Both the position numbers and the translations under genes were made by a program. Shown here one piece after another: positions 6,550 to 29,646 of a stretch of 32,518 nt of DNA (positions are counted from its first letter, which is position 1; each line of letters opens with the position of its first letter). Location of the stretch: positions 1-32,518 of IMG/VR virus record IMGVR_UViG_3300026078_000069; one strand, given 5' to 3'. This DNA is from a virus. The notes beneath the pieces were generated by a model. That model was not told where the DNA came from and did no database searches. It saw only the letters and a list, made by a program, of their open reading frames with translations.

Positions 6550-7442
<893 letters not shown>

Positions 7443-7443
<1 letters not shown>

Positions 7444-7769: not shown

Positions 7770-7793
7770 TCCAGAATTGCACAGGAACGGCGT

Positions 7794-7811
7794 CAACAAT
7801 CAAGGCTTCAA
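7794..7811 (-). repeat. 18-bp dispersed element, copy 1 (before fibre and lysis genes)
   Basis: On the - strand it reads TTGAAGCCTTGATTGTTG. Its first TGA is the stop codon of the 1506-residue virion protein. The next ATG (7769) lies 24 bases beyond its end. Confidence 0.85.
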
Positions 7812-10800
7812 CGTTTGTAAAGAGGTCCTTTGGGGACTTGTTCACGCAACCCGGGCACGCCCATCTTCACATCCTCAACGATGTTTCGAGGATTGCGGAA
7901 CCCTTGATGTGGGTCGTGCGCCGCCGCGTACTGTTGAACCGCAAGCGGAACAACCATGCTGCGAAGCTGATTGCCCATATTCTCAGCCAAGCCGCTGCGG
8001 TGGTGGTACTTCTGCGCCTTGTCCGCGGTTTCCATCCAGCGGGCCGGCTGATCGATGTATGGGACGTCAAGGCGCGCCATCGCCACAGCGTTGTCGGCCA
8101 GCGCATGCAGACCGGCATCAATGGAGTCCTTCTCTTTGCCGTAGTAGCTCTCGAATACGCGACGGAAGCCAGCGCCAGCCTGAACAATCTGCGTCGGCGC
8201 ACCGTGGAACGCCTCGGTACCAAGGTCGAACCCGCCAAAACGTCCCGTGTTCGCACGAATATCCTTGCCTTCGGCGTCCTTCTCCGGTTTCTTGTCTTTC
8301 GTCAAACCACCCAACACACCAGGGCCGAGCAAGTAGCCGATGGCCGCAAGGCCAATACCAACACCCTGCTTGTTGATGTTCTTCATGATGTAGTCGGCGC
8401 GCTCTGGCGTGATTTCCTTGCGCATTTCCAACAACGCTTTCGGCAAGCCTACGGTGTAACTGGTCGCTTCCTTGGCGATGTTCAGCGGGATCTTGCGGAT
8501 TGGGAAGATCGACTTGAACGCGAACGCCAGCGCCTTTTCGCCAGAGCCGCCACGCTCCAACTGCATCAGGAAATTGTTGATCTTGTCCGCAATGGCGTTT
8601 TTGCCCTGCATCTTCGCTTCAAGCGCATCCGCGTAGGCTTTTGCGCCGAGCATCGCTTCCGTGCTTGGCCGAGTCATGTACTCGACCACATCCGCATCCG
8701 ACATGCCTTGCTTCACCAGGGAATCGCGCAGCGCGTTACCGCGGAGCGTGTAGGAACGATAGAACTCCGGCTGCGAGGCAAATTCCTTGACCATCGCATG
8801 CGTGCGACCCGGGATACTGGTCAGCGTGCGGAATCCTTCACGGTATTCGCCCTGTTTGAACGAACTCGCAAGGTCGCCCATGAAATCGGTAAATTCGCCC
8901 GTGTGGTGTTCCTTCGTACCGAACTGCGCATCCAGATTGGACTGACCGTAGCGCAATTGCTCCAACGCACCTTTGAACGCCTTCCCGTGGCCTTTGATCG
9001 CCTGCAGCTCAGCTTGGAAGTTCAATCCCTGCCCGTGCCGCGGTGCTTGCTCTGCAATCTTCGACAGTCCGGGGATATGGCGCGCGAAAGACCCTACGGC
9101 GCCCTCCACGACCTTCGACAGATTCGTTCCGACAACCGCATAGGCCAGCTTCGGATAGACGTGCAGCGACGACAGGATCGCGCCCATGTGCAGGTTGTGC
9201 GCAATGTCCATCGTCTTGACGGGTAGACTTTCTGAGGCGCGCCGCTGTTTCGCGGCCATGCTTTCCAATTCGCGCTGCACCTTGTCGCGCTCGATCTGCA
9301 GCTTTCGCGTTTCCTCGTTGTAGACGATGGGTTCGCGCTTGGCTTTCTCAAAGTCGCCCGACTCGATACGACCGCGCTTCTCGTTGATCTGCTTCTGCAA
9401 CTGCTTCTGCCGAGTCACATTGCGCTGTGCGTCACCGGACAGGATGGACGCGATCTGTTCGCGCGACAGCCCGGTCGCTTCGCCGATATCGCCATGAATC
9501 GTGGCGATAGCATCCTTATCACCCGCCAATTCACGCGCCATCTGCTTGATGAGCGAACGGATATCATCGGCACGCGAGAATTTCGCATCCCGGCTCATCG
9601 TCGCGGGCTGCGCTTCGAGTCGCTTGGCGATGTCGAGCAGCTTCGCGCGCAGGTCCGCGTATTTTTCCGCAGGTTTTCGTCCGCTAGCACGCTGCGCCAG
9701 CTTCTTTTCTGCCTCGGCAAGACGGGTCGTCAGTTCTGCAATGCGCTCCTGCACACCAGCCGACAGCCGCTCTTTGCCGCTCAACGCTTGGATGTAGCGA
9801 GTCCACTTCGTGCGCAGTCCTTCGCGCGTGAACGTCTGTTGCCGAGCAATACCCGCTTGCGCCCACTCGTATCCGGCGTTCCGGTTCGCCTGCTCGTACT
9901 GGTTGAAAGCGTGGTCCACACGTTGCAAGTCGGCAAGCGCCGCCATATGTCCACGTTCATCGCCGGATTTCTGCGCTTCCAACGCACGGTTTACGGCTTC
10001 GTCGCGGGCATTCTCAAGATGCACCGCATGCAGCGCCATGATGTTCTGTTCTTCCGCAGTCAGCGGGCGTCCTTTGTCGGCCAATTCTTCCGTCAAGCGC
10101 TGGCCGATGCCGGGGTCCTTCGCTATCCGTTCGCGCGCCGTACCCTCGACGTTCTGTACGCTGCGCTTGCCTTCGGCCTGCACTGGCTCTTTGCCACGCA
10201 CCTGCTGCGATTCCTCGCGCATGGCGTTCTTTGTGCCGACGAGGTTTTCTGACGCCTCCTGCGGCTTCACTGGCTCGCTCGTAGGCTTCGGCGGCTCCGC
10301 GACCGGCTTGGCCTCGGCCTGCGTCTGCTCGTCCTTCCGCGGCGTTGCCACGCGCCCTGCGGCGGTCTGGAACGTGAGCCCCGGACCTTCGGCTAGATGC
10401 TGCAGATTCGACAACGCAAGGTCTTTCACAAGCCGCTCGTTGGACTTCGCCCAATCCGCAGGGAGGCCCATCTTATCGAGCCCATTCAACACGCGATCTT
10501 TGATCTTTCCCCACACCGAATCCGCCACGTCAGGATGCGACATGACGTACTCGGCGCTATGGCCGATCAGTTCCTCATTCACTGCGCCGGGCTTGGTGTT
10601 CGGATGAATCGCATCCTGCGCTTCGGCCAGCACTGGATGTGCGAGCGCGCCATCGGCGTCTTTCTTGCCCGCCAGTGTGCGCAGGTAGTTTCCGAGCCGT
10701 TCAACGCCGTTGTCGCCGAGGATGTTGCGCAGATTGGAATGGATCGCCTCGTGCGCGAGCACCGGGACAATACGGCCTTTCGGGGTGTTCTCAGGAACGA

Positions 10801-12328
10801 CCGTTGCTGAGCCGTCCTGCGAGTAGCCGCGCACACTGCCCTTGTCCTGTGACGACAGTTCGCCCGTGGTGTCCGCCAGAGGTGTGTTGTTCAAGTCCTC
10901 GCGGGACTGGAACTGCACACCGTTCTTTTCGAGCTTGGCGACCTGCTTTTCGCCCAACTCGTTGACTGCTTCGGCGCGACCGGATGCGGCGGATTCGTGG
11001 TTGTCGCCTTCCGGTTCGGCACGGCGGAACGGAACGGCTTCGTCCGCGGCCGGCCGCTCAGCCTCTACGGCTCGGACGGCGCCTTCTGGAATTTCTGCAG
11101 TTCCCGGTTCACCAACGCTTTCGCCTTGGCCGCGTCCTTCTGGCGCAGGCTCGCCGCCCACATCTGCCAACGGGTTTGGCACACCGCGATCAGGTAGCGT
11201 CCGAGTAGCTGTGGCGGAAGTTGCCAGTTCATCGGCCGGAATTGTACTCCTTACCGCTTCTGCAATCGGCTCGGCCACCTGAGTCTGACCTTCAGCATTA
11301 TCAGCCGCAGGTACAGGTTCGACACGATCCCCGCTAGGCGCCACATCGCTAGGAATTGCTTCTCGTCCACCTTGTTCCCCAGGAATTGCGGTGTCGATCA
11401 TGTCGCGCATACGTGCGATGAAATCCGCCCTTTGCTCTGGCGTCGCAGCGGCAAACGCTTCATGCAAAGGGGTCGCCGCCGCCCCGACCTGAGGGGGTGA
11501 ACGTTCCGGGACCGAGGCCGGATTCAGGGCTTCTTGGGGCGGCGGCGGTTGAACTGGTTCTTGTCCGGTCAGACGGCGCGTGACCGCATCGGCAACGTTC
11601 GTGACGGGATCAGGCGGTGTTTCCGTGCCGGCGCGCTGGCCGAGCGTGTCAGCAACGGCCTGTGTACGCGCCGCGGCGCGTTGCGCGGGCGATTCGGACG
11701 GGACCATGCCGGCGCCAGCGATCGAGCCGCCGACATCCGCGCCAATGGCGTAGGGGTCGAATACTTCGCCACCCTGCAGCGCGCGCGAGCCCGCACCAAG
11801 TGCCACGTTGGCCGGCGTCTGCAGCAACGCGCGTTGCAGGAAGTTGCGACCGAGGCCACCAATGCCCATCGACGCAAGTGTCTGCCCAGTACCAAGGCTG
11901 AGCGCCTTGTACGCATCCGGCAGATTGCCGCCGTCATTCAACTTCTGCGTTGCTTGGTCGCCGATGTTGTTCAGGCCGAACGTTGGCAGGTTCCCCACGA
12001 ATCCACCAACAGCTTCCGCAATCTTTCCTGCCGGCGTGGTCGGAGCCGCTGGCGCATTTTCCTGTACCCAATCGTTGAACGACTTTGCGCCGCCAAACAG
12101 TTGACCTTCGTTAGCCTCGCGGATGGCATCCGGCTCAAGCGGGTTGACCACGCGATTTGCGCCTGACAGCGCCAACGCCAAGGTGTTCGCTGTCCCACTG
12201 GCCGCCCTGCGGAGTGACCCCGCAACCTGGTCCGTGACTGACGGCTCGTCAACTGGCGTGAACTTCGACCAGTCGACCGGCGCCGAGTCATCCTCAACCG
12301 GCTTGAACTGGCTCCAATCGACGGTCAC
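7808..12328 (-). CDS. Giant internal virion/ejection protein with zinc metallopeptidase motif (1506 aa)
   Basis: The size and place (last of a series of internal proteins in a podovirus) point to an ejected virion protein. The N-terminus has two V-D-W-S-x-F-x-P-V repeats within 30 residues and a low-complexity Pro/Ala/Glu region to about residue 480. A metallopeptidase signature HEAIH is at 526-530 in a hydrophobic context (VPVLAHEAIH), with NEELIGH near 584 as a possible third ligand. Residues of about 740-1060 are mostly helical and Lys/Glu/Ala-rich with coiled-coil character. The C-terminal 400 residues hold hydrophobic segments (near 1325) like those in large polyvalent phage proteins. 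Presumably it crosses or remodels the envelope during DNA entry. Confidence 0.8.
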   Translation of the reverse strand: MTVDWSQFKPVEDDSAPVDWSKFTPVDEPSVTDQVAGSLRRAASGTANTLALALSGANRVVNPLEPDAIREANEGQLFGGAKSFNDWVQENAPAAPTTPAGKIAEAVGGFVGNLPTFGLNNIGDQATQKLNDGGNLPDAYKALSLGTGQTLASMGIGGLGRNFLQRALLQTPANVALGAGSRALQGGEVFDPYAIGADVGGSIAGAGMVPSESPAQRAAARTQAVADTLGQRAGTETPPDPVTNVADAVTRRLTGQEPVQPPPPQEALNPASVPERSPPQVGAAATPLHEAFAAATPEQRADFIARMRDMIDTAIPGEQGGREAIPSDVAPSGDRVEPVPAADNAEGQTQVAEPIAEAVRSTIPADELATSATATRTLPDRGVPNPLADVGGEPAPEGRGQGESVGEPGTAEIPEGAVRAVEAERPAADEAVPFRRAEPEGDNHESAASGRAEAVNELGEKQVAKLEKNGVQFQSREDLNNTPLADTTGELSSQDKGSVRGYSQDGSATVVPENTPKGRIVPVLAHEAIHSNLRNILGDNGVERLGNYLRTLAGKKDADGALAHPVLAEAQDAIHPNTKPGAVNEELIGHSAEYVMSHPDVADSVWGKIKDRVLNGLDKMGLPADWAKSNERLVKDLALSNLQHLAEGPGLTFQTAAGRVATPRKDEQTQAEAKPVAEPPKPTSEPVKPQEASENLVGTKNAMREESQQVRGKEPVQAEGKRSVQNVEGTARERIAKDPGIGQRLTEELADKGRPLTAEEQNIMALHAVHLENARDEAVNRALEAQKSGDERGHMAALADLQRVDHAFNQYEQANRNAGYEWAQAGIARQQTFTREGLRTKWTRYIQALSGKERLSAGVQERIAELTTRLAEAEKKLAQRASGRKPAEKYADLRAKLLDIAKRLEAQPATMSRDAKFSRADDIRSLIKQMARELAGDKDAIATIHGDIGEATGLSREQIASILSGDAQRNVTRQKQLQKQINEKRGRIESGDFEKAKREPIVYNEETRKLQIERDKVQRELESMAAKQRRASESLPVKTMDIAHNLHMGAILSSLHVYPKLAYAVVGTNLSKVVEGAVGSFARHIPGLSKIAEQAPRHGQGLNFQAELQAIKGHGKAFKGALEQLRYGQSNLDAQFGTKEHHTGEFTDFMGDLASSFKQGEYREGFRTLTSIPGRTHAMVKEFASQPEFYRSYTLRGNALRDSLVKQGMSDADVVEYMTRPSTEAMLGAKAYADALEAKMQGKNAIADKINNFLMQLERGGSGEKALAFAFKSIFPIRKIPLNIAKEATSYTVGLPKALLEMRKEITPERADYIMKNINKQGVGIGLAAIGYLLGPGVLGGLTKDKKPEKDAEGKDIRANTGRFGGFDLGTEAFHGAPTQIVQAGAGFRRVFESYYGKEKDSIDAGLHALADNAVAMARLDVPYIDQPARWMETADKAQKYHHRSGLAENMGNQLRSMVVPLAVQQYAAAHDPHQGFRNPRNIVEDVKMGVPGLREQVPKGPLYKR

Positions 12329-13320
12329 AGCGGCACCGGCTGCCCGTTCTGCACCACGTAGGTCTTGCCGTCAGGGCCGCGGAGTTTCTGGCCTTCTTTG
12401 TATGGGCTCGCGGCAACTTGGGTGGGAGCCTGCGGTGCGGATTGCGGCGCAGGAGAACTGCCGGAGAACGCACCTAGCACTCGGCCAAGCATCGACGGCT
12501 CGGGCGGTGGCGCTCCTAGCGTGCTGTCCACGTCATCGAACTTGTGTGCATCGGCGTAGGCCATCGCCGCATGATCCGCGTTCGCATACTCCGGGTGTCC
12601 GCTCTGGATACCCTGATACCGGAACTGTTGGAAGTTGCGGTAATCCTGGTCGTCCGGGAACAGCCGCGCTGCTTCGTCCTTCGTCAGTGTCGTGGGCTTG
12701 ACGGCAGGCTTCTGCGGCAATCCAACGCCCATGCCACGCTTCGCTGCCAGCGCGTTCGAGGCAGACGCCTGCGCGTTCTTCTCGCCGATCATGGCGCGGC
12801 CAAGGTCGGTCGGCGTCATCGTCTGACCGGTTGCATCGGCGTATGGATTGAATGATACGTTGTCAGCCACATGCGTGACCTGCAGCGGCTTCATGTCACC
12901 GACAGCGATCTGCCGGTTCATGCCGATGTCATCGCCACGCATTGCCGCATCGAGCGCGCTGTGCTGCGCCGCAAGCTTGCCCTGTCCGATCTGAGCCTCA
13001 GATGCGATGTTCGGGTTGTATCCTGCGCTGAAATTCGCGCCGAGAAAGGCGGCGGTCATCGGATCGACGCCGGAATCCTTGAGATTGCCAACGTAGCGGA
13101 TCCGTGCGTCGTTCTCTGCCTCGGCCTTCACTGCCTGCGCTACCCGCATACGCTCCTGCGCCAGCGCGTCACGCATGCGCGCGCCCTGGTAGGCGCCTTG
13201 CATCATCGCGGCATCGCGGCGTGCGCCGTTGCCCATGAGCGCGGCGCCGAGCGATCCCCAGCCATTGCCGGCGCCAGAGCCATAGCGGTTTTGCATGAGC
13301 TCACCATAGGAAACTGGCAT
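12325..13320 (-). CDS. Internal virion protein (331 aa)
   Basis: The ATG lies one base after the preceding stop, and the stop overlaps the next gene. The N-terminal 120 residues are Ala/Gly/Met-rich and helical. The middle contains KDEAARLFPDDQDYRNFQQFRYQG in outline. The C-terminus ends in the YKEGQKLRGPDGKTYVVQNG motif often seen at the ends of phage structural proteins. It has no membrane helix or enzyme motif. By position it is one of the ejection proteins that form the DNA-delivery channel or core; assignment is by context. Confidence 0.7.
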   Translation of the reverse strand: MPVSYGELMQNRYGSGAGNGWGSLGAALMGNGARRDAAMMQGAYQGARMRDALAQERMRVAQAVKAEAENDARIRYVGNLKDSGVDPMTAAFLGANFSAGYNPNIASEAQIGQGKLAAQHSALDAAMRGDDIGMNRQIAVGDMKPLQVTHVADNVSFNPYADATGQTMTPTDLGRAMIGEKNAQASASNALAAKRGMGVGLPQKPAVKPTTLTKDEAARLFPDDQDYRNFQQFRYQGIQSGHPEYANADHAAMAYADAHKFDDVDSTLGAPPPEPSMLGRVLGAFSGSSPAPQSAPQAPTQVAASPYKEGQKLRGPDGKTYVVQNGQPVPL

Positions 13321-13321
13321 G

Positions 13322-14056
13322 TCAGCTTCCGCCCTTTAAATAGCCGTATGGACCATAGCTGCCGGAGTTGATCAGCGTGCTCAGATAGTCAGGCGTCTGT
13401 GCGCCGGAAAGCTGATTCGCGTAGTCGTATTGGTTGCTCGAACCGGCGCCGCTTGCTGCGCCCAATAGGCTTGACCATCCGCCGCTTCCGCCATAGGCAC
13501 CTGCAGCGCCGTTAAGCAGTCCGCTTCCCACGTCAATCCACGGATTGCGCCGAACAGATTGCAGCTTCAGTTGGTCGAGAAAGTTTTGACCTGACGCCTT
13601 GCGCGCGATCAACCCAAGGTCATTGCCATAGTTGTCGATGTTGACGCGGTTGTTCTGCCGCTGCTGAGACGGCGCATTGATGCTCGACTGCAGGTCTGCC
13701 TGTTGATTTCCGAAATTCGTAATGCCCTGCGCCGCATTCGCGCCCGCCGTCTGATACGCCTGTGACACGGCGCCCGGAACCTGAAACACCTTTTGCGCCT
13801 GCCCAGCGTTCGCCTGCAGCACAGCCTGATTCGCAGCGAGCCCCGCGGCCTTTTCCTTCGTGTCAGTTTGCTGACCCTGCTGCTGGATCATCTGCGCCGT
13901 GCGCGCATCCGCTTGGTGCTGGAGGTTCTGCTGATTGCGAATCTGTTGCGCAAGCGCGTTGTCCTGCTTCTTCGCAGTCTGCTGCGTATTGTAGTAGCTC
14001 GCACCCGCGCCAAGCGCAGACAGCGCCAGAGGGACCCAAATCGCTTCCGACCCCAT
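13322..14056 (-). CDS. Glutamine-rich internal virion protein with N-terminal membrane-like segment (244 aa)
   Basis: ATG 14056 has GGAGGG seven bases upstream and follows the previous stop by one base; a longer in-frame version would run through the previous gene. A hydrophobic segment near the N-terminus (WVPLALSALGAGASYY) is followed by about 130 Gln/Ala-rich helical residues and a Gly/Tyr/Ser-rich tail. This is the shape of small podovirus ejection proteins such as P22 gp7 or T7 gp14, which insert in the envelope at infection. The similarity is architectural. Confidence 0.7.
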   Translation of the reverse strand: MGSEAIWVPLALSALGAGASYYNTQQTAKKQDNALAQQIRNQQNLQHQADARTAQMIQQQGQQTDTKEKAAGLAANQAVLQANAGQAQKVFQVPGAVSQAYQTAGANAAQGITNFGNQQADLQSSINAPSQQRQNNRVNIDNYGNDLGLIARKASGQNFLDQLKLQSVRRNPWIDVGSGLLNGAAGAYGGSGGWSSLLGAASGAGSSNQYDYANQLSGAQTPDYLSTLINSGSYGPYGYLKGGS

Positions 14057-14057
14057 C

Positions 14058-14720
14058 TCAATACCCTCCGTATCCGCCGTAGCCGCTACCACCGTAGCCG
14101 CCGCCATTGGTTCCAGAACCTGGTCCGAACAGCGGTGAGTAGACCTGCCCGTAGCCGTATAGCATCGCGTTCCGCGCCGTCTTCCGGTCCTGACTCTGTT
14201 GGTAGATGTCGTTGAAGTTGGAGAACGTGTCACCCAACTGGTTCGCGGTCGCCGTGCCCTGACCGGAAAGCAGGTTGTTTTGCAGTCCAAGCGCCGCCTG
14301 CTGGCTAATCGTCGTCGTGTCCGCACCGCTTTGCGCGAGGCCGAGCAACGTGTTTCGTGTCGTCTCGTCCTGGTTGCGCAGATTCGCCGCAGCCTGCTGC
14401 CCATAGTTCGAGGCTTGCAGTAGTCCCTTGTCGTAGTCCTGCGACAACTGCGTTCCTTCGGCCGCCTGCTGGCTTCCGCCAACAAGGCCAGAACGGGCAA
14501 GAGCGAATTTCAGATTCCGCTGTGCGATCGTATTCTGCCGGTTCAGATCGCCCGTGTAGTAGTTCGTCGTGTCCTGCTGCAGTTTGCTGTACTGCGCCTG
14601 CCGCTTTGGATCAGAGAAGATGCTGTTGATCGAGGCCGTCGAGGCAGCGATCTGCGCCTGCCGATCCTTTTCGGCCTGATTTGCCGCGTCTTGCGCGGAA
14701 TTGCTGCTGCCACCGCCCAT
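14058..14720 (-). CDS. Glutamine-rich internal virion protein with Gly-Tyr tail (220 aa)
   Basis: ATG 14720 overlaps the preceding stop (TAATG), with GAGGA as ribosome site. The body is helical and rich in Gln, Asn and Ala (for example ANLRNQDETTRNTLLGLAQS). The C-terminus is an aggregation-prone Gly/Tyr/Ser repeat (GGYGGSGYGGYGGY). It resembles other small ejection or core proteins of podoviruses. It is followed after one base by a similarly Gln-rich protein, so the two may be ancient duplicates or partner subunits. Confidence 0.7.
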   Translation of the reverse strand: MGGGSSNSAQDAANQAEKDRQAQIAASTASINSIFSDPKRQAQYSKLQQDTTNYYTGDLNRQNTIAQRNLKFALARSGLVGGSQQAAEGTQLSQDYDKGLLQASNYGQQAAANLRNQDETTRNTLLGLAQSGADTTTISQQAALGLQNNLLSGQGTATANQLGDTFSNFNDIYQQSQDRKTARNAMLYGYGQVYSPLFGPGSGTNGGGYGGSGYGGYGGY

Positions 14721-15208
14721 TACACAGTCCTCGAGTAGAGCGCTACATCTTGGCCTTGCAGGCCGTACTTGAACCACGTTCCCTCGCGCTTGAGCTTCAA
14801 TCCCCGCTCGTACCACTCCAATGCCTTCGTCCGGGACGCCAAGGCGTTCGTCTGCAGGCGCCGAGCGCCCATCTCGAACAACCCCTCCATCATCCAGCGC
14901 GAGGCTTTCGTGATCGCGCGCCAGCCGTCTTTCCAGCCATCGCACGATCCGACCATCCACGACTGCCACACGCCGGGAAGGACTTCGTGGTAGCCGCCCG
15001 CACACGCCGGGAGGTTGTCCGGCCCAAGCAACGTGAACTTCATGCCAGGCGTGTTCATGAAACCGATCGCCGCAACTTCCGGATCAAACTTCTCTGCCGG
15101 ATAGAACGCCATGTACTGCTCGATTTCGTCGGGCCGCATGCGCTCGCACAGGTAAAGCAAGTGCCAAGCACTGCAGGCGATCAGGTTGGATGGCGGTTTC
15201 GCGGGCAT
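14720..15208 (-). CDS. T7 gp13-like GNAT-fold internal virion protein (162 aa)
   Basis: Residues of about 50-160 follow an acetyltransferase-like pattern: a beta strand (MKFTLLGPDNLPACAGGYHEV), a W-x-S-W-M-V-G strand, a long helix, then L-x-T-N-A-L-A-S-x3-A-L-x-W-Y-E-R-G-L-K, the typical GNAT end. T7 gp13 and relatives have this fold and are needed for assembly of the internal core, with acetyl transfer not shown. It opens the internal-virion gene block. Its ribosome site is weak, and copy 2 of the 18-bp repeat ends 25 bases upstream of its ATG. Confidence 0.75.
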   Translation of the reverse strand: MPAKPPSNLIACSAWHLLYLCERMRPDEIEQYMAFYPAEKFDPEVAAIGFMNTPGMKFTLLGPDNLPACAGGYHEVLPGVWQSWMVGSCDGWKDGWRAITKASRWMMEGLFEMGARRLQTNALASRTKALEWYERGLKLKREGTWFKYGLQGQDVALYSRTV

Positions 15209-15233
15209 GAGGTGCAGCGTTCCAGAAATAGGC

Positions 15234-15251
15234 CAACAATCAAGGCTTCAA
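15234..15251 (-). repeat. 18-bp dispersed element, copy 2 (before internal virion genes)
   Basis: It is identical to copy 1 over all 18 bases. The first TGA in it is the stop codon of the gene before (15248-15250). The next ATG is 25 bases further on. Confidence 0.85.
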
Positions 15252-15754: not shown

Positions 15755-16344
15755 GCGGGGTCGAACTGAAATTGAAGACGGTTGCCACGGTTCATGCCGA
15801 TTTTTGTAAGGCCAAATCCAATCGGTACGGCACCAAGGATGTATTCGATCGTCCAGCGGTCTCGCTGCATTCGAGTACAGAGATTCCCAGCATTCACATA
15901 GGCAAGAATGATGTCATTCGTACCAAGCAATGTTTCCAAGCCACGCTTGTCATCCATTGCAACACGTGGGTTGGTGTAGGACCCGGAAAACGATAAGAAT
16001 GTCTGCGCGTGCGCCACCGGGTCGTACCACCAAAGTTTCATCACGCCGCCCTGCACGAATGACACACACGGATTCATGTTTTGGTCGAACGTGCCTGAAA
16101 TTTCCGTAGTCCCAGCCTGAGTGAAAAGAACCACCGGGCTACCTAAACTTGGCGCGCTGACGCTAACCGTTCCAGTGCTGGTGTCCAGCGTGAAGGTCCA
16201 CGTCTGAACCTGCAGTCCTTGCGATGAGTCCTGAAGCGCTATGCCACCTAACTCATAGTCAAAAGTCGGACTTGTAGTTTGGTCATCCGGAGGCAAAAAA
16301 GAAGCCGGCTCAGGTGACGTCGAAAGGACGTTCTGCGGCATCAT
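15751..16344 (-). CDS. Phage tail-associated beta-rich protein (197 aa)
   Basis: ATG 16344 overlaps the preceding stop (ATGATG), so a longer start at 16437 is rejected. The protein is beta-rich: VVLFTQAGTTEISGTFDQNM, a GGVMKLWWYD strand, then VAMDDKRGLE and DIILAYVNAGNLCTRMQRDR. I recall this as a conserved tail-region protein of podoviruses related to Bcep22 and BPP-1, without a known function. It sits between pieces of the nozzle, suggesting that it is a component of the tail. It has no signal or membrane segment. Confidence 0.65.
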   Translation of the reverse strand: MMPQNVLSTSPEPASFLPPDDQTTSPTFDYELGGIALQDSSQGLQVQTWTFTLDTSTGTVSVSAPSLGSPVVLFTQAGTTEISGTFDQNMNPCVSFVQGGVMKLWWYDPVAHAQTFLSFSGSYTNPRVAMDDKRGLETLLGTNDIILAYVNAGNLCTRMQRDRWTIEYILGAVPIGFGLTKIGMNRGNRLQFQFDPA

Positions 16345-17243: not shown

Positions 17244-17253
17244 TGTAGTTCCC

Positions 17254-21744: not shown

Positions 21745-21757
21745 ACATACCCCGATG

Positions 21758-21783
21758 AAAAAAGGGCCGGGCTAACCCGGCCC
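21758..21783 (-). terminator. Strong intrinsic terminator after the capsid genes
   Basis: On the - strand GGGCCGGG, loop TTAG, CCCGGCCC, then TTTTTT. It is a perfect 8-bp GC stem with a U-run, placed between the 99-residue protein gene and the tail genes. It would reduce transcription into the tail block. Confidence 0.9.
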
Positions 21784-21789
21784 GATTGG

Positions 21790-22089: not shown

Positions 22090-22098
22090 GTGGTTCCT

Positions 22099-22356
22099 TT
22101 AGTCGATCAGGAGAATGCCGGCGGTTGCCGTCTTGATGTAGTTCGGCAACGTGACCTCGACAAACGAGTTCGCCGGTACGGTCGCCAGCGCCGTGTAGGA
22201 CGCAACGTTGTCCGGCGACTGCGTCAGTGCGATCGGCGAGGCAGTCGGGTTGAACGCCAGGACGTTGCGGCCGGCAACGAACGGAGTCGCACCGCCGCCA
22301 ACGCCTGGGCCAAGGTTGATGGCCGTCGTGACACCGAGAGTGAGAAGCTTTGCCAT
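22099..22356 (-). CDS. Small probable capsid decoration protein (85 aa)
   Basis: This Gly/Ala/Val-rich, beta-type protein (VLAFNPTASPIALTQSPDN, LATVPANSFVEVTLPNYI) follows the coat gene. It shares with that gene an identical 12-base leader (GAGGACACGACA) immediately before its start codon, so both are probably made at high level. Size, location and expression signal fit a head decoration or stabilising protein. No sequence family is recognised, so this is an inference from position. Confidence 0.65.
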   Translation of the reverse strand: MAKLLTLGVTTAINLGPGVGGGATPFVAGRNVLAFNPTASPIALTQSPDNVASYTALATVPANSFVEVTLPNYIKTATAGILLID

Positions 22357-22368
22357 TGTCGTGTCCTC
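22357..22368 (-). promoter_or_regulatory. Translation start leader shared with the coat gene
   Basis: GAGGACACGACA lies directly before ATG 22356 and is identical to the sequence before the coat gene (23429-23440). GAGGA is a strong ribosome site at 7 bases spacing. Confidence 0.7.
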
Positions 22369-23428
22369 AGGCGATGGAAAGAACGGCCATCGAATTGCGC
22401 TTCTTGACCGTCAGCCCGTAGTCGGCAGTGAGGCCGAAGTAATGGGTGTAGCGGTCGTACACGCGATCGGGCTTGCGGTTGATGAGCCAGCGGCCCTTGT
22501 TCGGGCGCAGAATCATGTGCTTCGACTGCAGGAAATAGCAGCGCTTGGCGAAACCGGTGATCGTCGCATCGAGCACGTCGAACGTCGGGTCCCACACGAG
22601 CTCCACGCCCTTGAAGTACAGGCCGCTGGTGCCGCCGCCGGTGTCGGTCGAGGCATCGATGTTCGTGTTCTTGCCACTGCCCAGGATGATCTGACGGTTG
22701 ATCGTCGACAGCGCGTCTTTGCGATACGCGTCGAGGAAGGCCGAGCCGACGAAGATCGCGTCAGGCGACATGCCGCCGTAGGTCATGCACTTGCGCCACA
22801 GGACTTCCATCTGCTGCACGAGGTTGCCAGCGGTGCCGGTGCTGATGCCGATGCTTGCGTTGTTCTGCCAGTAGGCGTTCGTGGACTGATCGATGCCGCC
22901 GACGACGGTCGCCGATGTCGGCGTGGTCGAGACGAGCAGATCGAGGCCGGGGCACGACTTCGTCGACGCAGTGCCGTCCTTGTGAATTTCGAGGTCCCAG
23001 TTCTGCTGGAAACCGTCCTTCAAGGTGGCGTAGTTCTCCTTGAGGCGGTTCACGATCTGGATTTGCTCGGCCTCGGTGAGGACCGCGTTCTTGTCGTCGG
23101 TCAGGACGATGCCGTTGTCGGCCATGTCCGTTTCGTTGACCGCGAAACCATCGTGGGCTTCGTAGTGCTGGAACGGCGCTAGGCGGACGGTGTCCTTGGT
23201 GTTGTAGGTCACCTGGTCGTCGCGCGTGTAGTTCTGGTAGTTCGAGTTGTTCGAGATGCGCACCTTCTCGTTGAAGATGCCGTTGCCGAACACCGATTCC
23301 TGCTTGTTCTTGATGAGCCACGCCGCAAACGGGCGCGCGGTCGTGAACTGGTCGACCGGGTCGTTCTTCGCGTAGGTGTTGAGCTGGTAGTTGGCGCCTG
23401 CGGCCAACTGTGCGGAAGTGATAGGCAC
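22367..23428 (-). CDS. Major capsid (coat) protein (353 aa)
   Basis: The product follows scaffold and portal in the gene order and has the size usual for an HK97-fold coat protein. The N-terminus (AQLAAGANYQLNTYAKNDPV) is a helical arm. A loop with NSNYQNYTRDDQVTYN fits the E-loop region, and the C-terminus (DRYTHYFGLTADYGLTVKKRN) fits a P-domain/A-domain ending. GTG is the start, preceded by the GAGGA leader. The gene has a 171-base non-coding leader containing repeat copy 3. Recognition rests mainly on context, with a family resemblance to podovirus coat proteins of the BPP-1/Bcep22 type. Confidence 0.85.
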   Translation of the reverse strand: MPITSAQLAAGANYQLNTYAKNDPVDQFTTARPFAAWLIKNKQESVFGNGIFNEKVRISNNSNYQNYTRDDQVTYNTKDTVRLAPFQHYEAHDGFAVNETDMADNGIVLTDDKNAVLTEAEQIQIVNRLKENYATLKDGFQQNWDLEIHKDGTASTKSCPGLDLLVSTTPTSATVVGGIDQSTNAYWQNNASIGISTGTAGNLVQQMEVLWRKCMTYGGMSPDAIFVGSAFLDAYRKDALSTINRQIILGSGKNTNIDASTDTGGGTSGLYFKGVELVWDPTFDVLDATITGFAKRCYFLQSKHMILRPNKGRWLINRKPDRVYDRYTHYFGLTADYGLTVKKRNSMAVLSIA

Positions 23429-23440
23429 TGTCGTGTCCTC
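23429..23440 (-). promoter_or_regulatory. Coat gene ribosome-binding leader GAGGACACGACA
   Basis: The 12 bases directly before the GTG start of the coat gene are identical to those before ATG 22356. The GAGGA core at 7 bases spacing explains efficient use of a GTG start. Confidence 0.7.
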
Positions 23441-23599
23441 GAAATAGGAAAGGTCGCGGCCTAGGGCCGGTTTCTCTCCGCGTTCGTGGACACGACTCCA
23501 CCTACGTTGCTACGGGACGCGATCCCCGCTTACGCTGGCGCGGTGCGGATTGTCAGTCCGCACGCGCAATGTGCACGATTCGTTTCAACAATCAAGGCT
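23429..23599 (-). promoter_or_regulatory. Coat gene leader with three hairpins
   Basis: This 171-base stretch holds no convincing gene. It contains repeat copy 3 at its far end and three possible RNA hairpins: 23543-23563 (GTGCGGA/TCCGCAC, 7-bp stem), 23486-23501 (GTGGA/TCCAC) and 23457-23469 (CGGCC/GGCCG). None is followed by a U-run, so they are not terminators. They may be an mRNA-stabilising leader for the coat transcript. Confidence 0.55.
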
Positions 23600-23603
23600 T
23601 CAA
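23586..23603 (-). repeat. 18-bp dispersed element, copy 3 (before the coat gene)
   Basis: It is identical to copies 1 and 2. Its first TGA is the stop of the small cysteine-rich gene (23600-23602). Here the next true start is 157 bases away, unlike the other copies. Confidence 0.85.
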
Positions 23604-23824
23604 CAAGTTGGGTTTTGCGCCCCAAGTACACAGTTGCAAATTCCACTGCCGCCGTTCGCTGGGTTGCATGGACATGCCAGCAGATATTGATTGGGCTGCA
23701 CATTTGTTGGCGGGACTACCCTACCTGGTATGAACGAATTCGGCCAAACCTGCGCGCAAGGGCAAACATAGACTGTCGGAGATACTCCACGCTGGCACTT
23801 TGGACAAATCCATCCGGTATTCAT
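23600..23824 (-). CDS. Small zinc-binding protein between scaffold and coat genes (74 aa)
   Basis: The ATG overlaps the scaffold stop. The sequence opens with C-P-K-C, then C-P-C at residues 21-23, as in a zinc ribbon. A second Cys cluster (CPC near residue 51, then ICNC) comes near the end. I recall small W-x-C-P-x-C proteins at the same place in other podoviruses. A role in virion assembly is possible but unproven. Its stop codon lies in repeat copy 3. Confidence 0.7.
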   Translation of the reverse strand: MNTGWICPKCQRGVSPTVYVCPCAQVWPNSFIPGRVVPPTNVQPNQYLLACPCNPANGGSGICNCVLGAQNPTC

Positions 23825-24891
23825 CGGACGCTCTCAACACCCATCGCAAAAGCTTCGTAATCGTTCTTCGGCTGACGCGTTTGCGTCGTCGCGCTGCCGG
23901 TCGGGCGAAGCGGCACGGCACCGACCGCGGGCTTTGTGGCCGGCGCGGGCGCAGCAGCAATTGCCGGAAGTGCACGATACGCACGCTCCGCAGCGTCCGC
24001 CCACTGGCTCGGGTGCATCGACTGCTGGATGATCTGCAATGTCGGCTGCAGATACGCCATCTTCTGCGCGAACGCAGGATCGGAAGCGCGAAGCCGATCG
24101 CCGACTGACTGCAGCTGCGTCAACGCTTGTGCGCTCGCCTGTTCCTGCTGCTGGCGCTGCTGCTGTTCGGCCTGCTGGCGCTGGGTCAGTTCGCTGGTAC
24201 GTGCCGCGGCCTCGCGCTGCTGGGCGATTTCCAGAGCGCGTGCGCGTGGCAGATCCCCGTCAGCCACTTCCTTTGCCAAGTCGCGATGCTGTTCAAGCGG
24301 ATCGAGCAAGCCAGGCACTTCCCGGCCGATACGCTGACCCAGCCACTTCACTTCCTGCATGAGGCCGTCGAAAACTTCGGTCATGCGCTTGGGATCGCCG
24401 CTGTTGATCGCGGACAAGTAGCCCATGACCGCGCCGAACTGCTGCGGACTGGCGCCGGTCGCTGCGATCGAGCTCTGCCATTCGTCGGCCTTCGCGGCCT
24501 TCGCGGCAAGTTCTTCAAACGCCTGTTGTGTCGGACGCGCGGCAAGCTCGCGGAACCGCGCGGCGCTCTTTTCCTTCAGTCCGAGCGCGGAAACTTCGGC
24601 ATCGATTTCCGCCTTGGCGCGATCTTCGTCCGAGAGTTCTTTATCCCTTAGGTATTCCTCTTCCGTGCGTTCAGCCACTTCCTTAATGCGCGCGTCTTCC
24701 TCCGCAGCCGTATCCGCAGCCGCTTTGCCTTCGTCGGCTTTGGCTGGCGCATCGGCGCTGGCTTCGGCAACGCCGCGCGCGAACGCCTCAACATCGCTTT
24801 CGGCAGGCGCCGGAGCAGCAGCAGGCGCATCGGCTACGGGAGCGGCAGCGGTATCGGGTGTTGCGGTGTCATCAGTTTGGACGGTGTCCAT
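23821..24891 (-). CDS. Capsid scaffolding protein (356 aa)
   Basis: It lies between portal and coat genes, as scaffolds do. The N-terminal 70 residues are disordered and rich in Ala, Pro, Asp and Glu. The body is helical with a Gln-rich segment near residue 240 (QRQQAEQQQRQQQEQ), and the end is Pro/Ala-rich. High Glu/Gln/Ala and low aromatic content are typical of scaffolds, which guide assembly and leave the shell. ATG 24891 overlaps the portal gene end by 20 bases. Confidence 0.8.
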   Translation of the reverse strand: MDTVQTDDTATPDTAAAPVADAPAAAPAPAESDVEAFARGVAEASADAPAKADEGKAAADTAAEEDARIKEVAERTEEEYLRDKELSDEDRAKAEIDAEVSALGLKEKSAARFRELAARPTQQAFEELAAKAAKADEWQSSIAATGASPQQFGAVMGYLSAINSGDPKRMTEVFDGLMQEVKWLGQRIGREVPGLLDPLEQHRDLAKEVADGDLPRARALEIAQQREAAARTSELTQRQQAEQQQRQQQEQASAQALTQLQSVGDRLRASDPAFAQKMAYLQPTLQIIQQSMHPSQWADAAERAYRALPAIAAAPAPATKPAVGAVPLRPTGSATTQTRQPKNDYEAFAMGVESVR

Positions 24892-27199
24892 CGATCATCC
24901 CGTTGTGAGGTACTTGAACAAGGTTTGATCCACCCTGCGGAGGTGGCATCGGAAGTCCGGGTTGGGCGCCGGGACCAACACTTTGCGGCGGCGGAAGCTG
25001 CGGCATCGGGCCCGGCTGCTCGGCCGGTACTTGCGGCAGGAATCGAGCCGGGTCGAGACGGTCGCCAGTGCGCTTGAGTGTTTCGGCGACGAGTTCTTCG
25101 ATGCCATCCGCGATGTCGCTTGGCGCCGACTGGCGAAGCTGGCCAACCTGCAAAATAGCGTTCTGCAGAATCGGCATTGTCGCGGCCCAAGACTGTTGCT
25201 GGGCCGTCGTATCAGGCTTGCCGGACGATCCGCCTTTGACGTTGACGGTCAACAGGATGGTCAAGTCCTCGACCGTGATGTTCTGCGGCCAGAATGCCCA
25301 AGGTCCGGCGATCTGCTGCACGTCATCGCGCTCCATCTTCTGCAACGCAACCTCGGCGCTGTACTGCGCCAAGTCGTCCATCATGGAGTCGATGCAGTCG
25401 CGCATGTAACTCGTGCGCGCGTTCGTTCCGGTCTGCTGAATTTCGGCCTCGGTCGCGGTCTTCGCGGTGCGAACTGAGGCGGCCAGAGCCTCCTGAATGC
25501 CCCACGCCATCTCAAGCATGGCGCGTGTCGGGCGATCGTCGTACAAATTGACGTCGATGGCCGGGTATTTGATCTCGGTCACCGCTTCTCTGATAGACGC
25601 GCCAGGACGTGACGTGCGCAGGGCGATCATTTCGCCAATGCCGCCTGCTTCGAGCTTTGCGGCCTCTTTCGCATCCAGCAAAGTCGCGTCAAACCCCGTC
25701 TTCGGGATCGCGCGGCGGCGATGCTCGGCGCGGTTCGAGTAGATGCGATTCATGTCATCGAGCAGATGACGGGTGCGCGTAATCATCGACTGCGGGTGAC
25801 GCTCGCCGTCAACGCGGAGCATGGACAGCGCGAAGAACGGATAGAACCGCGTCGTTCCCGGGTTTGGCTGATACGGCGCCTTGGCGTACTTGTCGAGCCC
25901 GTCGATCAGCGTCAGGACCGTATTCGCGTCCTTGTTCCAAACCTCCCACACGCACACGTTGCCGTCACCGTTCTGCATCGAGCCGCTGATGCTCGCGCCG
26001 GCGCGGTAGGTGTCGGCATCGACTTCGGAGACATTCGCAAGTGGCCCAATGTCCTTGCGGTCGGTGTTGTCGGCCGGCTTCTGCTGGAAATAGATGCTCG
26101 CCTTCGTCAGATCGCTCTCGACGGTCGGGAACGCTGCCTTTGCTTCATCCATCGACATGAACGTGCGGTGCGCGATCCACGGCGCATCCCGGTATTGCTC
26201 AAGCGAATTCGGGACCGACGCGACTTGGATGTCTTCGGCGTTGACGAAATCGACTGCCAAGCCGCGGGCAACCACAATTTCGACCTTCGCCTGCAATCCG
26301 GCGATCTGCTGCTCAAGACTTGCGCGCAGTTCGTCGACGTTGTTGCCGCCGTCCGCGATTTCTTCCTGCGTGGCAGAAATCCGCTCCAAATTGTCCTGCA
26401 GGTCGGAAAGCTGCGACTGGATGATGGGATCTTGCCCCATGCGCTCCTGCCAACTCGCCTTGAGCCAGCCGATGCCGACTGACAGACACGAGCCCACACA
26501 CGGCTCGGCCTGCGCCTTGAGTCGCGCACGCTTCCACAAACGCTGGATCACGATTTCGAGCGTTTGGCCAAGCTGCTTGGCGTCGTCCTGGCGTTGACGG
26601 TACGGCGCAAGAATCTGCTTTGCGGCAGCGCGAACGGTTTGGTCAAGCCAGCCCTGCACTGCGGATTGCGCGGCCTGCTCTGGCGGCACGCTAGGCTGTG
26701 TTGGCGTACCTTTCGGCACGGTGTGTGTGAGCGCCTGCCCAACACCAACCAACGAAGCCTGTGCGTTTGCCTGCGCCGCAGATGCCGCCGCCTGTTCACC
26801 GACCTGCTGCATCATCTGCTGCGTGTTCGGGTCCGCCATGACCTGCTGCCGCGCCATTTCCATGATTTCGGCCATCGGCGGCGGACTGGTCGAGTCCGCG
26901 GGCATGATGTCCAGATCGGGATCGCGGGCGTACAGGAACGATTTCAGGATATCGACATACGTGCCGGCGATCGGAATATTGACCTCGAACTGGCCCGCAT
27001 CGCCTCGTGCGTAGCGCCGGTCCAGTGCGTATTGCTTGCGAGCCGCCTTGTCGAACTCGCGCGCCTCGTTGATGCGTTTGAGCCACGCCTTAACGTCCGC
27101 GCATTCCTGCGCGTCGTACTTAGGGTCCGAAGACATCGCCGCCGACATAAACTGATCGGCTTCGCTGGGCTGCTGCAGTTGGTCTTCGGGCGTGCTCAC
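24872..27199 (-). CDS. Portal protein (775 aa)
   Basis: The gene sits directly after the large terminase and a small gene, and its product has the size of a podovirus portal (P22 gp1 is 725 residues). Visible features are an N-terminal ARGDAGQFEVNIPIAGTYVD region, an internal Gln-rich insert (about residues 115-190), a long helix with RHPQSMITRTRHLLDDMNRI (the dodecamer stem/crown), and a C-terminal Pro-rich tail with repeated Q-P-G-P motifs. GTG 27199 is chosen since it overlaps the previous TGA. It forms the ring through which DNA is packed and ejected. Confidence 0.85.
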   Translation of the reverse strand: MSTPEDQLQQPSEADQFMSAAMSSDPKYDAQECADVKAWLKRINEAREFDKAARKQYALDRRYARGDAGQFEVNIPIAGTYVDILKSFLYARDPDLDIMPADSTSPPPMAEIMEMARQQVMADPNTQQMMQQVGEQAAASAAQANAQASLVGVGQALTHTVPKGTPTQPSVPPEQAAQSAVQGWLDQTVRAAAKQILAPYRQRQDDAKQLGQTLEIVIQRLWKRARLKAQAEPCVGSCLSVGIGWLKASWQERMGQDPIIQSQLSDLQDNLERISATQEEIADGGNNVDELRASLEQQIAGLQAKVEIVVARGLAVDFVNAEDIQVASVPNSLEQYRDAPWIAHRTFMSMDEAKAAFPTVESDLTKASIYFQQKPADNTDRKDIGPLANVSEVDADTYRAGASISGSMQNGDGNVCVWEVWNKDANTVLTLIDGLDKYAKAPYQPNPGTTRFYPFFALSMLRVDGERHPQSMITRTRHLLDDMNRIYSNRAEHRRRAIPKTGFDATLLDAKEAAKLEAGGIGEMIALRTSRPGASIREAVTEIKYPAIDVNLYDDRPTRAMLEMAWGIQEALAASVRTAKTATEAEIQQTGTNARTSYMRDCIDSMMDDLAQYSAEVALQKMERDDVQQIAGPWAFWPQNITVEDLTILLTVNVKGGSSGKPDTTAQQQSWAATMPILQNAILQVGQLRQSAPSDIADGIEELVAETLKRTGDRLDPARFLPQVPAEQPGPMPQLPPPQSVGPGAQPGLPMPPPQGGSNLVQVPHNGMIDGHRPN

Positions 27200-27339
27200 A
27201 ACTTCCCTCTCAGCGCAATCACGCGTTCATAGTCATGCCGGCGTGATTCCTTACATTCGGATTCAGGCAAGCTCTCGAAATACCGGACGCCTGCGCGCAC
27301 TTGTGCGTCGGTCATAGCCATGATTTCTTCATCGCTCAT
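27196..27339 (-). CDS. Very small acidic protein between TerL and portal (47 aa)
   Basis: ATG 27339 overlaps the terminase stop (ATGA), and its TGA overlaps the portal GTG, so the frame exactly fills the gap between two essential genes. The peptide starts MSDEEIMAMTDAQVRAG and has a helical, highly charged composition (Glu, Arg, Asp) with one Cys. No family is recognised. It may be a small packaging accessory or only a coupling peptide. Confidence 0.65.
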   Translation of the reverse strand: MSDEEIMAMTDAQVRAGVRYFESLPESECKESRRHDYERVIALRGKL

Positions 27340-28937
27340 CGGTAGAACCTCCGACGCTGCGCCGCTTCCTGCTCGTCGCTATAACGGATTGACTCGATGT
27401 GCCGGCGAGTGAATGGGACGATGGGTTTCTCGCGGTCGTCGCTTGGAACGCTTGCGTTCTGCGTCAAATCAAGTCCGCGGCCAATGTTTCCGCAAACGTC
27501 CACGGCATCGTCATATCGGGCAAGTGGGAATGAACAAAGCTGATCGACAAGACGACCGGACCACGATCTTCCACGTGGAACATGGACCGTTCCAGCGCTT
27601 GCGCGCCCTCGAAAACTGGCGACGCGTGCGATCTTGTCGGAAACGCACGGCAGATACTCGATGGCCATAAACACCTGCTTTTCGGCCATCGTCTTCTTCA
27701 ACAACGGTTCGATCGCGCGGCGAATGACACCGGCCTCATCAAACCAAAGACGCGGACGCCATTGCTTCACCATTGCCAAGAATGGCTCTATCGTCTTGTC
27801 CGGCGCTTGCTGGCCTGACCACCAGTCTAAAATCCACAGATGGCCAATTGAATCTAGGCCAAAAACTCCATGCTCGGAAAAGTCGGGGTTTGTTCGCAAC
27901 GTCTTCTCGGTCACCGCAAGATCGCTGGCGCCGTAGATTTCGAGGTTTGCCGGCAGTTCTTCATCGTCATACCAGTTGAACCAACCGCGCTCGAACTGGC
28001 CGCCGCTGTCAGGCTGCGGACGCTGTTGGTACAGACTCGCCCAGGTGCGCCCGTTGGACTCGTAGTTCTGCCAGTGCCGCGCATCGAACCATTCCGGCCA
28101 GAGGTATTCGCCAATCTGGCGTTCAACTGGATCGTCTGCGCGCTCGCACTTCGCTGGTATGTTCAGGACGTGCCACACCTGTCCGTCACGGCAGGAAATC
28201 GGCCCTGATTCGCCGTTGTAGTTCTCGGGGAGAATTGAGCCCGCAAGGTCGTCCATATGCCAACGGGTTTGAATCAGGATCACACTCGCGCGCGGCTTTA
28301 GGCGCGTCATCAAGCTATCCTGATACTCCTGCAGAATCTTGCGACGAATGGTCTCGCTGTCCGCTTCTTCGCGATTAGCAACTGGATCATCGATGATTAG
28401 CAGGTCTGCGCGGGCAGAAGTGATTGCCCCGAGGATGCCAGCAGCCAACAAACCGCTATCGTTCGTAAGTTCCCATTCGGTGACGCCAGCGCTGCCGGCG
28501 CGCAAGACAGGCCGATCCTCCCATATAGCTGACGATTCCGAACTCGACGCCAAAGCACGACAGCGCCGGGACTGCCTCTCGGCAGGTGTAGCTGCATAGC
28601 TGGTAACAATGACCCGATAGCCCGGCTTGCGCGACAGCGCCCAAGCTGGGGCAACTACGGACGCATACGTAGACTTTGCAGAACCAGGAGGTTCAAGGAT
28701 GATGAGGCGGCCGCTATCTGCTTCGATACAGCGCTGGATCGCCTCCATCGTGACAATGTGATGCTTTGCGACCGCAGACTCGATCGGCTGGAACAACCAT
28801 TCGTTCGGATCATCGCTGATCGGAACGCCAGGAATAGTGACAGACTGGCTATAGGCAACAAGCGACTCCCGAGCACGGCGACGCCGTAATAGCTCAATCG
28901 CTGCGGCCTGCGGATCAATGGCGCTTCCATCAGCCAT
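27336..28937 (-). CDS. terL: Terminase large subunit (TerL, 533 aa)
   Basis: This is the packaging motor. The ATPase part has a Walker A-like EPPGSAKST at 82-90, a Walker B LLIIDD (179-184) and a coupling segment LIQTRWHMDDL (221-231). The nuclease part has the expected acidic residues: Asp339 in ASDL, Asp400/Glu401 in WFDEAG, and D-D-A-V-D at 476-480. ATG 28937 overlaps the TerS stop by 8 bases. Length and motifs fit a complete subunit. Confidence 0.93.
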   Translation of the reverse strand: MADGSAIDPQAAAIELLRRRRARESLVAYSQSVTIPGVPISDDPNEWLFQPIESAVAKHHIVTMEAIQRCIEADSGRLIILEPPGSAKSTYASVVAPAWALSRKPGYRVIVTSYAATPAERQSRRCRALASSSESSAIWEDRPVLRAGSAGVTEWELTNDSGLLAAGILGAITSARADLLIIDDPVANREEADSETIRRKILQEYQDSLMTRLKPRASVILIQTRWHMDDLAGSILPENYNGESGPISCRDGQVWHVLNIPAKCERADDPVERQIGEYLWPEWFDARHWQNYESNGRTWASLYQQRPQPDSGGQFERGWFNWYDDEELPANLEIYGASDLAVTEKTLRTNPDFSEHGVFGLDSIGHLWILDWWSGQQAPDKTIEPFLAMVKQWRPRLWFDEAGVIRRAIEPLLKKTMAEKQVFMAIEYLPCVSDKIARVASFRGRASAGTVHVPRGRSWSGRLVDQLCSFPLARYDDAVDVCGNIGRGLDLTQNASVPSDDREKPIVPFTRRHIESIRYSDEQEAAQRRRFYR

Positions 28938-29367
28938 CTAGCGCGCGCTCTCCAGCAGCAATAGCGAGCAAAGCCGAGTCGGGAAGGTCAACGGCCTTCA
29001 CAAGCAGAGGGTTTTCCTTATCCCCCTTCAGAGTCATCGCTTCGCCGTACTTGCGCGGCAATAGCTTCGCTGCAACCCATTTCCGAGCATCGACGCGGAC
29101 GCGTTTGTCATTCGGGTCAAGGTCTGTCCGATCGGCAATCTCAACGATTTCCTCGGCGAACTTCTCTGCACGCGATTCACAGGCGCGCGCGTACATGTCC
29201 GAAAATCCTTTGTGTTCATGCAGCCACAGATCGATTGTTGACCGCGCTGGAAAGTCGTCCTTGTCCGAAATGCTTTTCTTCGACTCACCTTGCGACACAA
29301 GCGCACAGATGCGCTCTGCCAGAATCGGCGTGTACTTTGTCGGTCTGCCGGGGGATTTGTTTGCCAC
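28930..29367 (-). CDS. terS: Terminase small subunit (TerS, 145 aa)
   Basis: It starts with a GRPTKYTPILAERICALV helix-turn-helix region and then STIDLWLHEHKGF, a DNA-recognition pattern typical of TerS. The centre has EEIVEIADR and RVRVDARKWVAAKLLPRKYG, a segment I recall as a hallmark of small terminase proteins of this type. GTG 29367 is the start; the product binds the packaging site and recruits TerL. The gene overlaps terL. Confidence 0.88.
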   Translation of the reverse strand: MANKSPGRPTKYTPILAERICALVSQGESKKSISDKDDFPARSTIDLWLHEHKGFSDMYARACESRAEKFAEEIVEIADRTDLDPNDKRVRVDARKWVAAKLLPRKYGEAMTLKGDKENPLLVKAVDLPDSALLAIAAGERALDG

Positions 29368-29381
29368 GCGATCGCCTAGGG

Positions 29382-29606
29382 TTACGAACCGTCATCGCCG
29401 CCAGTCGTCTGCCCCAGCACGACATTGGCTTTGCGGTCGATGGTGGCCTTCTGGCTCGGCGTGATTGACTTGCCGACTTGCTGCGATGCCCTCGCCTTCG
29501 CGTTTGCCGCGTGGCTCTTGTCAGGCATCGGATACTTGCGATCTTTCGGCAGCCCGAACATGGCATCCGACAGCGCATTGCGGCCTTTCGATGTGAGCGT
29601 GCTCAT
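29382..29606 (-). CDS. Small basic phage protein, DUF6582-like (74 aa)
   Basis: ATG 29606 is chosen because the longer version begins inside the 18-bp repeat. The sequence has LPKDRKYPMPDKSHAANAKA, the pattern (P-x-x-R-K-Y-P-x-x-D-x-S-H-A-x-N-A) seen in small phage proteins named DUF6582. The function is unknown; the name comes from recall. It has no clear Shine-Dalgarno (the sequence before ATG is TGTCTGCAC). Repeat copy 4 ends 24 bases upstream. It is first in the packaging block. Confidence 0.65.
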   Translation of the reverse strand: MSTLTSKGRNALSDAMFGLPKDRKYPMPDKSHAANAKARASQQVGKSITPSQKATIDRKANVVLGQTTGGDDGS

Positions 29607-29630
29607 GTGCAGACAATGCACGAGCCGCAC

Positions 29631-29646
29631 CAACAATCAAGGCTTC
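29631..29646 (-). repeat. Dispersed element, copy 4 (16 of 18 bases; before packaging genes)
   Basis: On the - strand GAAGCCTTGATTGTTG. The two bases at its 5' end differ from the other copies. The second TGA in it is the stop of the preceding gene (29637-29639), showing that the element supplies the stop in another frame. The next ATG (29606) is 24 bases on. Confidence 0.8.

Follow-up and report, generated by a model that had tools for sequence, protein, structure and literature searches.

A genome-specific element at the starts of four late gene modules, a probable set of late promoters in a group of phages almost without described members

In phage lambda, the protein Q acts with a single late promoter. 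Phage P2 has four late promoters, one per late operon, all of which are switched on by the small phage protein Ogr, a zinc protein with the motif CX2CX22CX4C, at sites of the form TGT-N12-ACA (PMC3931495), and the four late promoters of phage Mu (viz. lys, I, P, and mom) are under the activator C (PMC4461284). At the middle promoters of T4, the box of a phage protein replaces the -35 region and the sigma70 polymerase is kept (MotA/AsiA, PMC7403470). The stoperators of cluster A mycobacteriophages are short asymmetric sites, as many as 30 per genome, which are bound by the immunity repressor and whose consensus differs between heteroimmune subclusters (PMC6550527). In the present work, we have analyzed a repeated element in a stretch of viral DNA of 32,518 nucleotides (IMG/VR record IMGVR_UViG_3300026078_000069, positions 1 to 32,518), hereafter the window, and in its relatives.

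The window contains the 18-bp element TTGAAGCCTTGATTGTTG on the minus strand in three exact copies and a fourth copy with 2 mismatches, both at its 5' end, so that 16 bases (29631-29646) are identical (Table 1); the copy number and positions of the original prediction are thus confirmed. A scan of the full window allowing mismatches has identified no further place with 3 or fewer mismatches to the 18-mer, and a chance origin is, as had been argued, very unlikely (mean expectation 0.01 copies, and never 4, in 100 dinucleotide shuffles). All four copies are oriented with late transcription and each overlaps the TGA stop codon of an upstream ORF, which lies within TTGAAG in copies 1-3 and within CTTGAT in copy 4, in agreement with what had been reported for both features. 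Each copy also opens a distinct module, as proposed: the modules that start just downstream are those for packaging (29606, the phrog_16160 gene followed by terminase), the coat (23428), virion proteins (15208, phrog_4177), and fibre and lysis (7769). The collagen-like fibre gene of the last module (6550-7443, minus strand) has 9-nt repeats encoding Gly-x-y triplets.

Table 1. Coordinates in the window of the element copies, the predicted promoter parts, and associated genes.
Feature	Position	Strand	Remark
Element copy 4, GCGAAGCCTTGATTGTTG	29631..29648	-	-35-like TTGATT at 29635-29640
Packaging module, predicted -10 CATTGT	29613..29618	-	6 nt to ATG
Packaging module, first gene, phrog_16160, MSTLTSKGRNAL...	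29382..29606	-	predicted leaderless start at 29606
Element copy 3, exact	23586..23603	-	-35-like TTGATT at 23590-23595
Coat promoter, predicted -10 CACATT	23568..23573	-	predicted +1 near 23561
Coat mRNA 5' leader, about 133 nt	23429..23561	-	conserved, structured; hairpin at about predicted +1
Major coat protein gene, phrog_9953	22367..23428	-	
Element copy 2, exact	15234..15251	-	-35-like TTGATT at 15238-15243
p4177 promoter, predicted -10 AACGCT	15216..15221	-	7 nt to ATG
Gene p4177 (phrog_4177), first of virion-protein module	14720..15208	-	predicted leaderless
Element copy 1, exact	7794..7811	-	-35-like TTGATT at 7798-7803
Fibre promoter, predicted -10 TGCAAT	7776..7781	-	weak, position 2 without A; 6 nt to ATG
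Fibre gene start, first of fibre/lysis module	7443..7769	-	predicted leaderless
p109, candidate late activator	29637..29966	-	
Intrinsic-terminator-like hairpin after coat/p22099/p21790 genes	21764..21783	-	

A search with the coat protein has identified 27 loci in IMG/VR and a prophage in Luteibacter sp. SG786, which carries these sites. Described phages are only distantly related (viz. Rhizobium phage RHph_N65, Microcystis phage Mae-Yong1326-1, Myxococcus phages Mx8 and Mx9, and a Bradyrhizobium phage). The coat and portal proteins (22367-27199, minus strand) share only 24-28% identity with those of RHph_N65 and Mae-Yong1326-1, as does the coat protein with those of Mx8 and Mx9, and the group is therefore almost without described phages. 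The nearest relative, G001 (IMGVR_UViG_3300009551_000587), has a coat protein that is 95-96% identical in amino acid sequence, and its DNA is mostly 69-82% identical. The 16-mer of the window is absent from G001 at all four places, and exactly the four homologous places are occupied by a repeat of its own with the core GACCCTTGACCAT (AACCCTTGACCAT at the coat). Absence from close relatives had been named as grounds for giving up a control element; the letters are indeed absent, yet a diverged four-copy element stands at the same four points, which strengthens the idea of a control element. The distant prophage G128 (coat 44% identical in amino acids) has its own three-copy element; a site at 15763 with 4 mismatches was not counted, as it has no demonstrable promoter context. 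Among the 38 IMG/VR viral contigs retrieved by the 16-mer pattern alone, each has the exact 16-mer once and none in multiple copies. Hence, the letters of the 18-mer are a genome-specific element, of which relatives carry their own versions in the same places. The window also has, between the scaffold gene and the coat promoter, a 74-aa cysteine-rich ORF (23600-23824, minus strand); since the element of G001 directly follows a scaffold-like end, this ORF has the look of an addition.

The bases around TTGA differ between genomes and agree between the copies of one genome. The flanks read GAAGCC-TTGATT-GTTG at all four sites of the window, GACCC-TTGACC-AT at the four of G001, and TGCCG-TTGACG-CCTTG at the three of G128, and other such dialects are GCC in the Luteibacter group, TCCG in a large group, and CCA at 3 of 3 sites of G016. 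For 49 sites from 16 genomes, flank identity between loci of the same genome has a mean of 0.648, and when genome labels were shuffled inside each locus the mean was 0.371 and the maximum 0.451, with 0 of 2000 shuffles reaching the observed value. In the window, G001, and G128 taken by themselves, identity within genomes is 0.805 versus 0.364 for the same locus across genomes. In the close relatives G004 and G006, as expected from common descent, sites of the same locus resemble each other more than sites of different loci do. That separate loci have changed in concert implies one trans-acting reader for all of them, and from these comparisons the reader of the bases around TTGA is most likely a phage-encoded factor; dialects of this kind could also come from a host factor that is not the same in all hosts.

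The sites of the relatives have the arrangement of promoters. At the homologous places in about 25 related phages, the predicted promoter has the form CCnTTGA, a spacer of 16 or 17 nt, and a -10 like nAnnnT, and in the aligned upstream regions CC or CCG is followed by the -35-like TTGA and, after 16-17 nt, by a -10-like hexamer in which position 2 is A and position 6 is T. Across the 49 sites of 16 genomes, from a table for which TTGA was required for inclusion and most genomes' coat sites were selected by the pattern nAnnnT, C at -2 and TTGA are invariant, and each of the two -10 bases (A2 and T6) is present at 80%. Where the hexamer was instead placed by its distance from the start codon, the A is found in 20 of 33 sites and the T in 27 of 33. 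With its selections, the 49-site set thus shows the features of the sigma70 class (a TTGACA-like -35, a 16-18 nt spacer, and A2 and T6 in the -10). A scan of the window for the sigma70 consensus (at least 9 of 12 matches) picked out none of the four promoters, which indicates that their -10 boxes are weak.

The distance from TTGA to the start codon is 34 or 35 nt in 32 of 33 p4177, fibre, and packaging sites, which places the start codon at the predicted +1; the packaging and fibre sites of many relatives were picked inside a 32-37 nt start-codon window. For the window, G001, and G128, the repeat alone served to find the sites, with no distance filter, and all 8 of their leaderless-type sites lie at 34-35 nt. 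Compared with 20 other window genes, these starts are preceded by weaker SD pairing (mean -2.9 versus -5.0 kcal/mol, p=0.0016). Both the geometry and the weak SD pairing fit leaderless starts with +1 as a predicted position, and on this reading the mRNAs of three modules (viz. packaging, p4177, and fibre) should be leaderless. In G004 and G006, the start codon at the packaging site would be GTG, and the promoter is found where p109 begins. One paper has remarked that phage transcripts are often leaderless (PMC5312081), so leaderless late mRNAs are not without precedent.

The coat promoter is placed about 170 nt upstream of the coat gene, with the element copy 158 nt before the gene. The leader that would result is about 126-141 nt long among the relatives and is conserved both in sequence and in structure, with a closing stem and inner hairpins and with a few compensatory changes. 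In nearly all relatives, a 5' hairpin whose stem sequence varies starts no more than about four bases away from the predicted coat start, and its position provides independent support for the predicted coat +1. In nine relatives, the coat promoter is directly preceded by the end of an intrinsic terminator. This conserved structured RNA is present in about 20 relatives, and a similar leader is found in L210, in which p109 was not detected; no Rfam family matches the coat leader. The leader may control coat translation or mRNA stability.

The gene p109 provides a candidate for the reader. Clustering of ORFs from 14 genomes gives it as the only non-structural gene shared by 13 of them, followed by ninB in 12, and it always adjoins the first late promoter. 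It is encoded directly before this promoter in the window, and the exceptions in order are G004, G006, and G011, in which the first promoter is found at the beginning of p109 instead of after it. The gene occupies the position of lambda Q, at the end of a nin-like region just before the late genes. In additional loci fetched with p109 or portal queries, p109 and the promoters are both present. In G014 and G421 (L210), whose record completeness is uncertain, p109 was not detected; both have no promoter before p4177 and have a near-consensus -10, TATGCT, at the coat, and a stronger coat -10 in relatives without p109 is expected if an activator is missing. G014 and G421 may form one clade, so that the two absences are possibly related by descent. 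The pattern of presence and absence fits an activator without proving it.

The protein itself matches no PHROG and, above the cut-off, no Pfam family, and it was not found by tblastn in the phages collection. Its AlphaFold2 model is fairly confident (pLDDT 84); fold searches with it gave no match with E < 0.001 in PDB or in viral models, no recognizable DNA-binding fold, no MotA or AsiA match, and no confident match of any other kind. The best VIA scores (Z 5.4 for a de novo design, followed by Z of about 4.4 for the C-terminal part of DNA polymerase eta) are in the chance range. Between the window and G001, p109 is 48-50% identical, and the coat, portal, p4177, and NinB proteins are 81-96% identical. 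The divergence of p109 correlates with that of the dialects (Spearman 0.53) no better than that of the structural genes (0.53-0.69), and it therefore does not single p109 out; ninB has no such correlation (0.04). Two other small proteins were tried and rejected as the factor: a zinc protein (31407-31637), which was not found in the TCCG group and to whose motif a similar one is present in G014, a genome without the p4177 promoter, and an HTH protein (31598-31849), for which no counterpart was found in G001. The former, on the minus strand, resembles a zinc ribbon (CxxC...HLTS) and has relatives in G001, G003, G004, G006, and the Luteibacter prophage. It is quite possible, if short of probable, that p109 is the factor that reads the late promoters.

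A layout of four late promoters has precedents in P2 and Mu, and it is the element, the geometry, and the candidate protein that differ. The original prediction had called an element used module by module unusual, which calls for some qualification, since P2 and Mu each have four late promoters (PMC3931495, PMC4461284). The likeness to P2 and Ogr lies in one late promoter for each late module; the 60 nt upstream of 11 sites from three genomes contain no TGT-N12-ACA, and Ogr_Delta (PF04606) has no match in 11 genomes, among which the window record may be incomplete (an E. coli control was positive). The arrangement resembles that of Mu and C in having four late promoters with, here, one candidate phage activator, and differs in that p109 has neither a Pfam match above the cut-off nor a confident match to a solved protein. 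The resemblance to lambda is in the location of p109 where Q sits, and the difference is in the four promoters and an element spanning the -35; the Q family (PF06530) has no match in the 11 genomes, with controls positive in 2. The same 11 genomes have no match to the phage sigma factor domain Sigma70_r4 (PF04545; controls positive in 14 of 14) or to T7-type RNA polymerase (PF00940), for which the control genomes were likewise without a match. MotA and AsiA of T4 provide a possible way of working, with the difference that the T4 genes are middle genes and those considered here are late.

That the element is a real conserved regulatory feature that marks a set of late promoters is well supported by these comparisons, and we consider it likely that the promoters are read by a phage factor. 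In this reading, each copy of the 16-18 bp element would form the extended -35 region (about -41 to -24) of a late promoter at which the host RNA polymerase acts with its main sigma factor, and each of the four promoters would serve one module (packaging, coat, virion proteins, or fibre/lysis). Three of these promoters would start at the A of the first ATG and give leaderless mRNAs, and that of the coat would give the 133-nt structured leader. A phage factor would read the bases around TTGA, so that all copies of a genome change together, and p109, produced from the end of the early operon, would turn on the four modules together, either by helping sigma region 4 at the -35 or by replacing it as MotA/AsiA do in T4; help at the -35 would be needed in view of the poor -10 boxes and an extended element straddling the -35. 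Promoter activity, leaderless starts, activation instead of repression, and p109 as the reader are all what we infer. Among the roles suggested originally, the relatives' sites, the promoter geometry, and the concerted change favor a repeatedly used late promoter or activator site.

The stoperator-like role also suggested would make the element an operator over the late -35, where a repressor made by the prophage keeps the late modules off; the dialects would then be immunity types. An integrase-like ORF at 2136-3179 marks the window phage as temperate, and the element is asymmetric, oriented with transcription, located near gene junctions, and genome-specific in concert, as are cluster A stoperators (PMC6550527). 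However, the copies number only four, every one of them is in the late region and has a conserved -35, spacer, -10, and start geometry, and relatives apparently without p109 have a stronger coat -10, as for a missing activator; we consider a repressor site unlikely. Alternatively, the four could be plain sigma70 late promoters used by the host alone, their flanks being kept identical by copying between sites or by a host-specific preference. This would account for TTGACA or TTGAAC with 16-17 nt spacers and for the near-consensus promoters of G014, G421, and L068, but sigma70 does not need the conserved C at -2 or the 6-10 extra identical bases, all copies have changed to different sequences in three genomes, and the window promoters fall below the consensus threshold, so that host polymerase acting alone seems quite improbable.

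The overlap of the copies with stop codons, and the location of three of them just before start codons, could also reflect a signal in intergenic mRNA (a small RNA or protein binding site, or a processing site) and not a promoter. The start-codon spacing and the nAnnnT block instead fit transcription initiation, and the coat copy is 158 nt before its gene, beyond a terminator in relatives and with a hairpin at about the predicted +1, which makes an RNA-level signal very improbable. Least probable is the original suggestion of a linker for module exchange kept by recombination, for which the location of the copies at module borders speaks: a linker should be common to recombining relatives, whereas here relatives differ and copies within a genome agree, and it explains neither the geometry nor the concerted change. 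The concerted divergence of the sites is shared with stoperators, and the four sites, all with promoter geometry, set the late promoters apart from them.

The proposed late promoters described here have as their new features a promoter element that changes as a set from phage to phage and a small unclassified protein that is the best candidate for its reader. More tentatively than its role as reader, p109 may found a new family of late activators characterized by an extended -35, phage-specific dialects, four modules, and leaderless mRNAs except for the coat. For the p109 family, which has so far been without one, this work provides a hypothesis of function. The relatives offer a natural series of matched pairs of sites and proteins in which a change of activator-promoter specificity may be followed, and the system is suited to asking whether late modules run on leaderless mRNAs.
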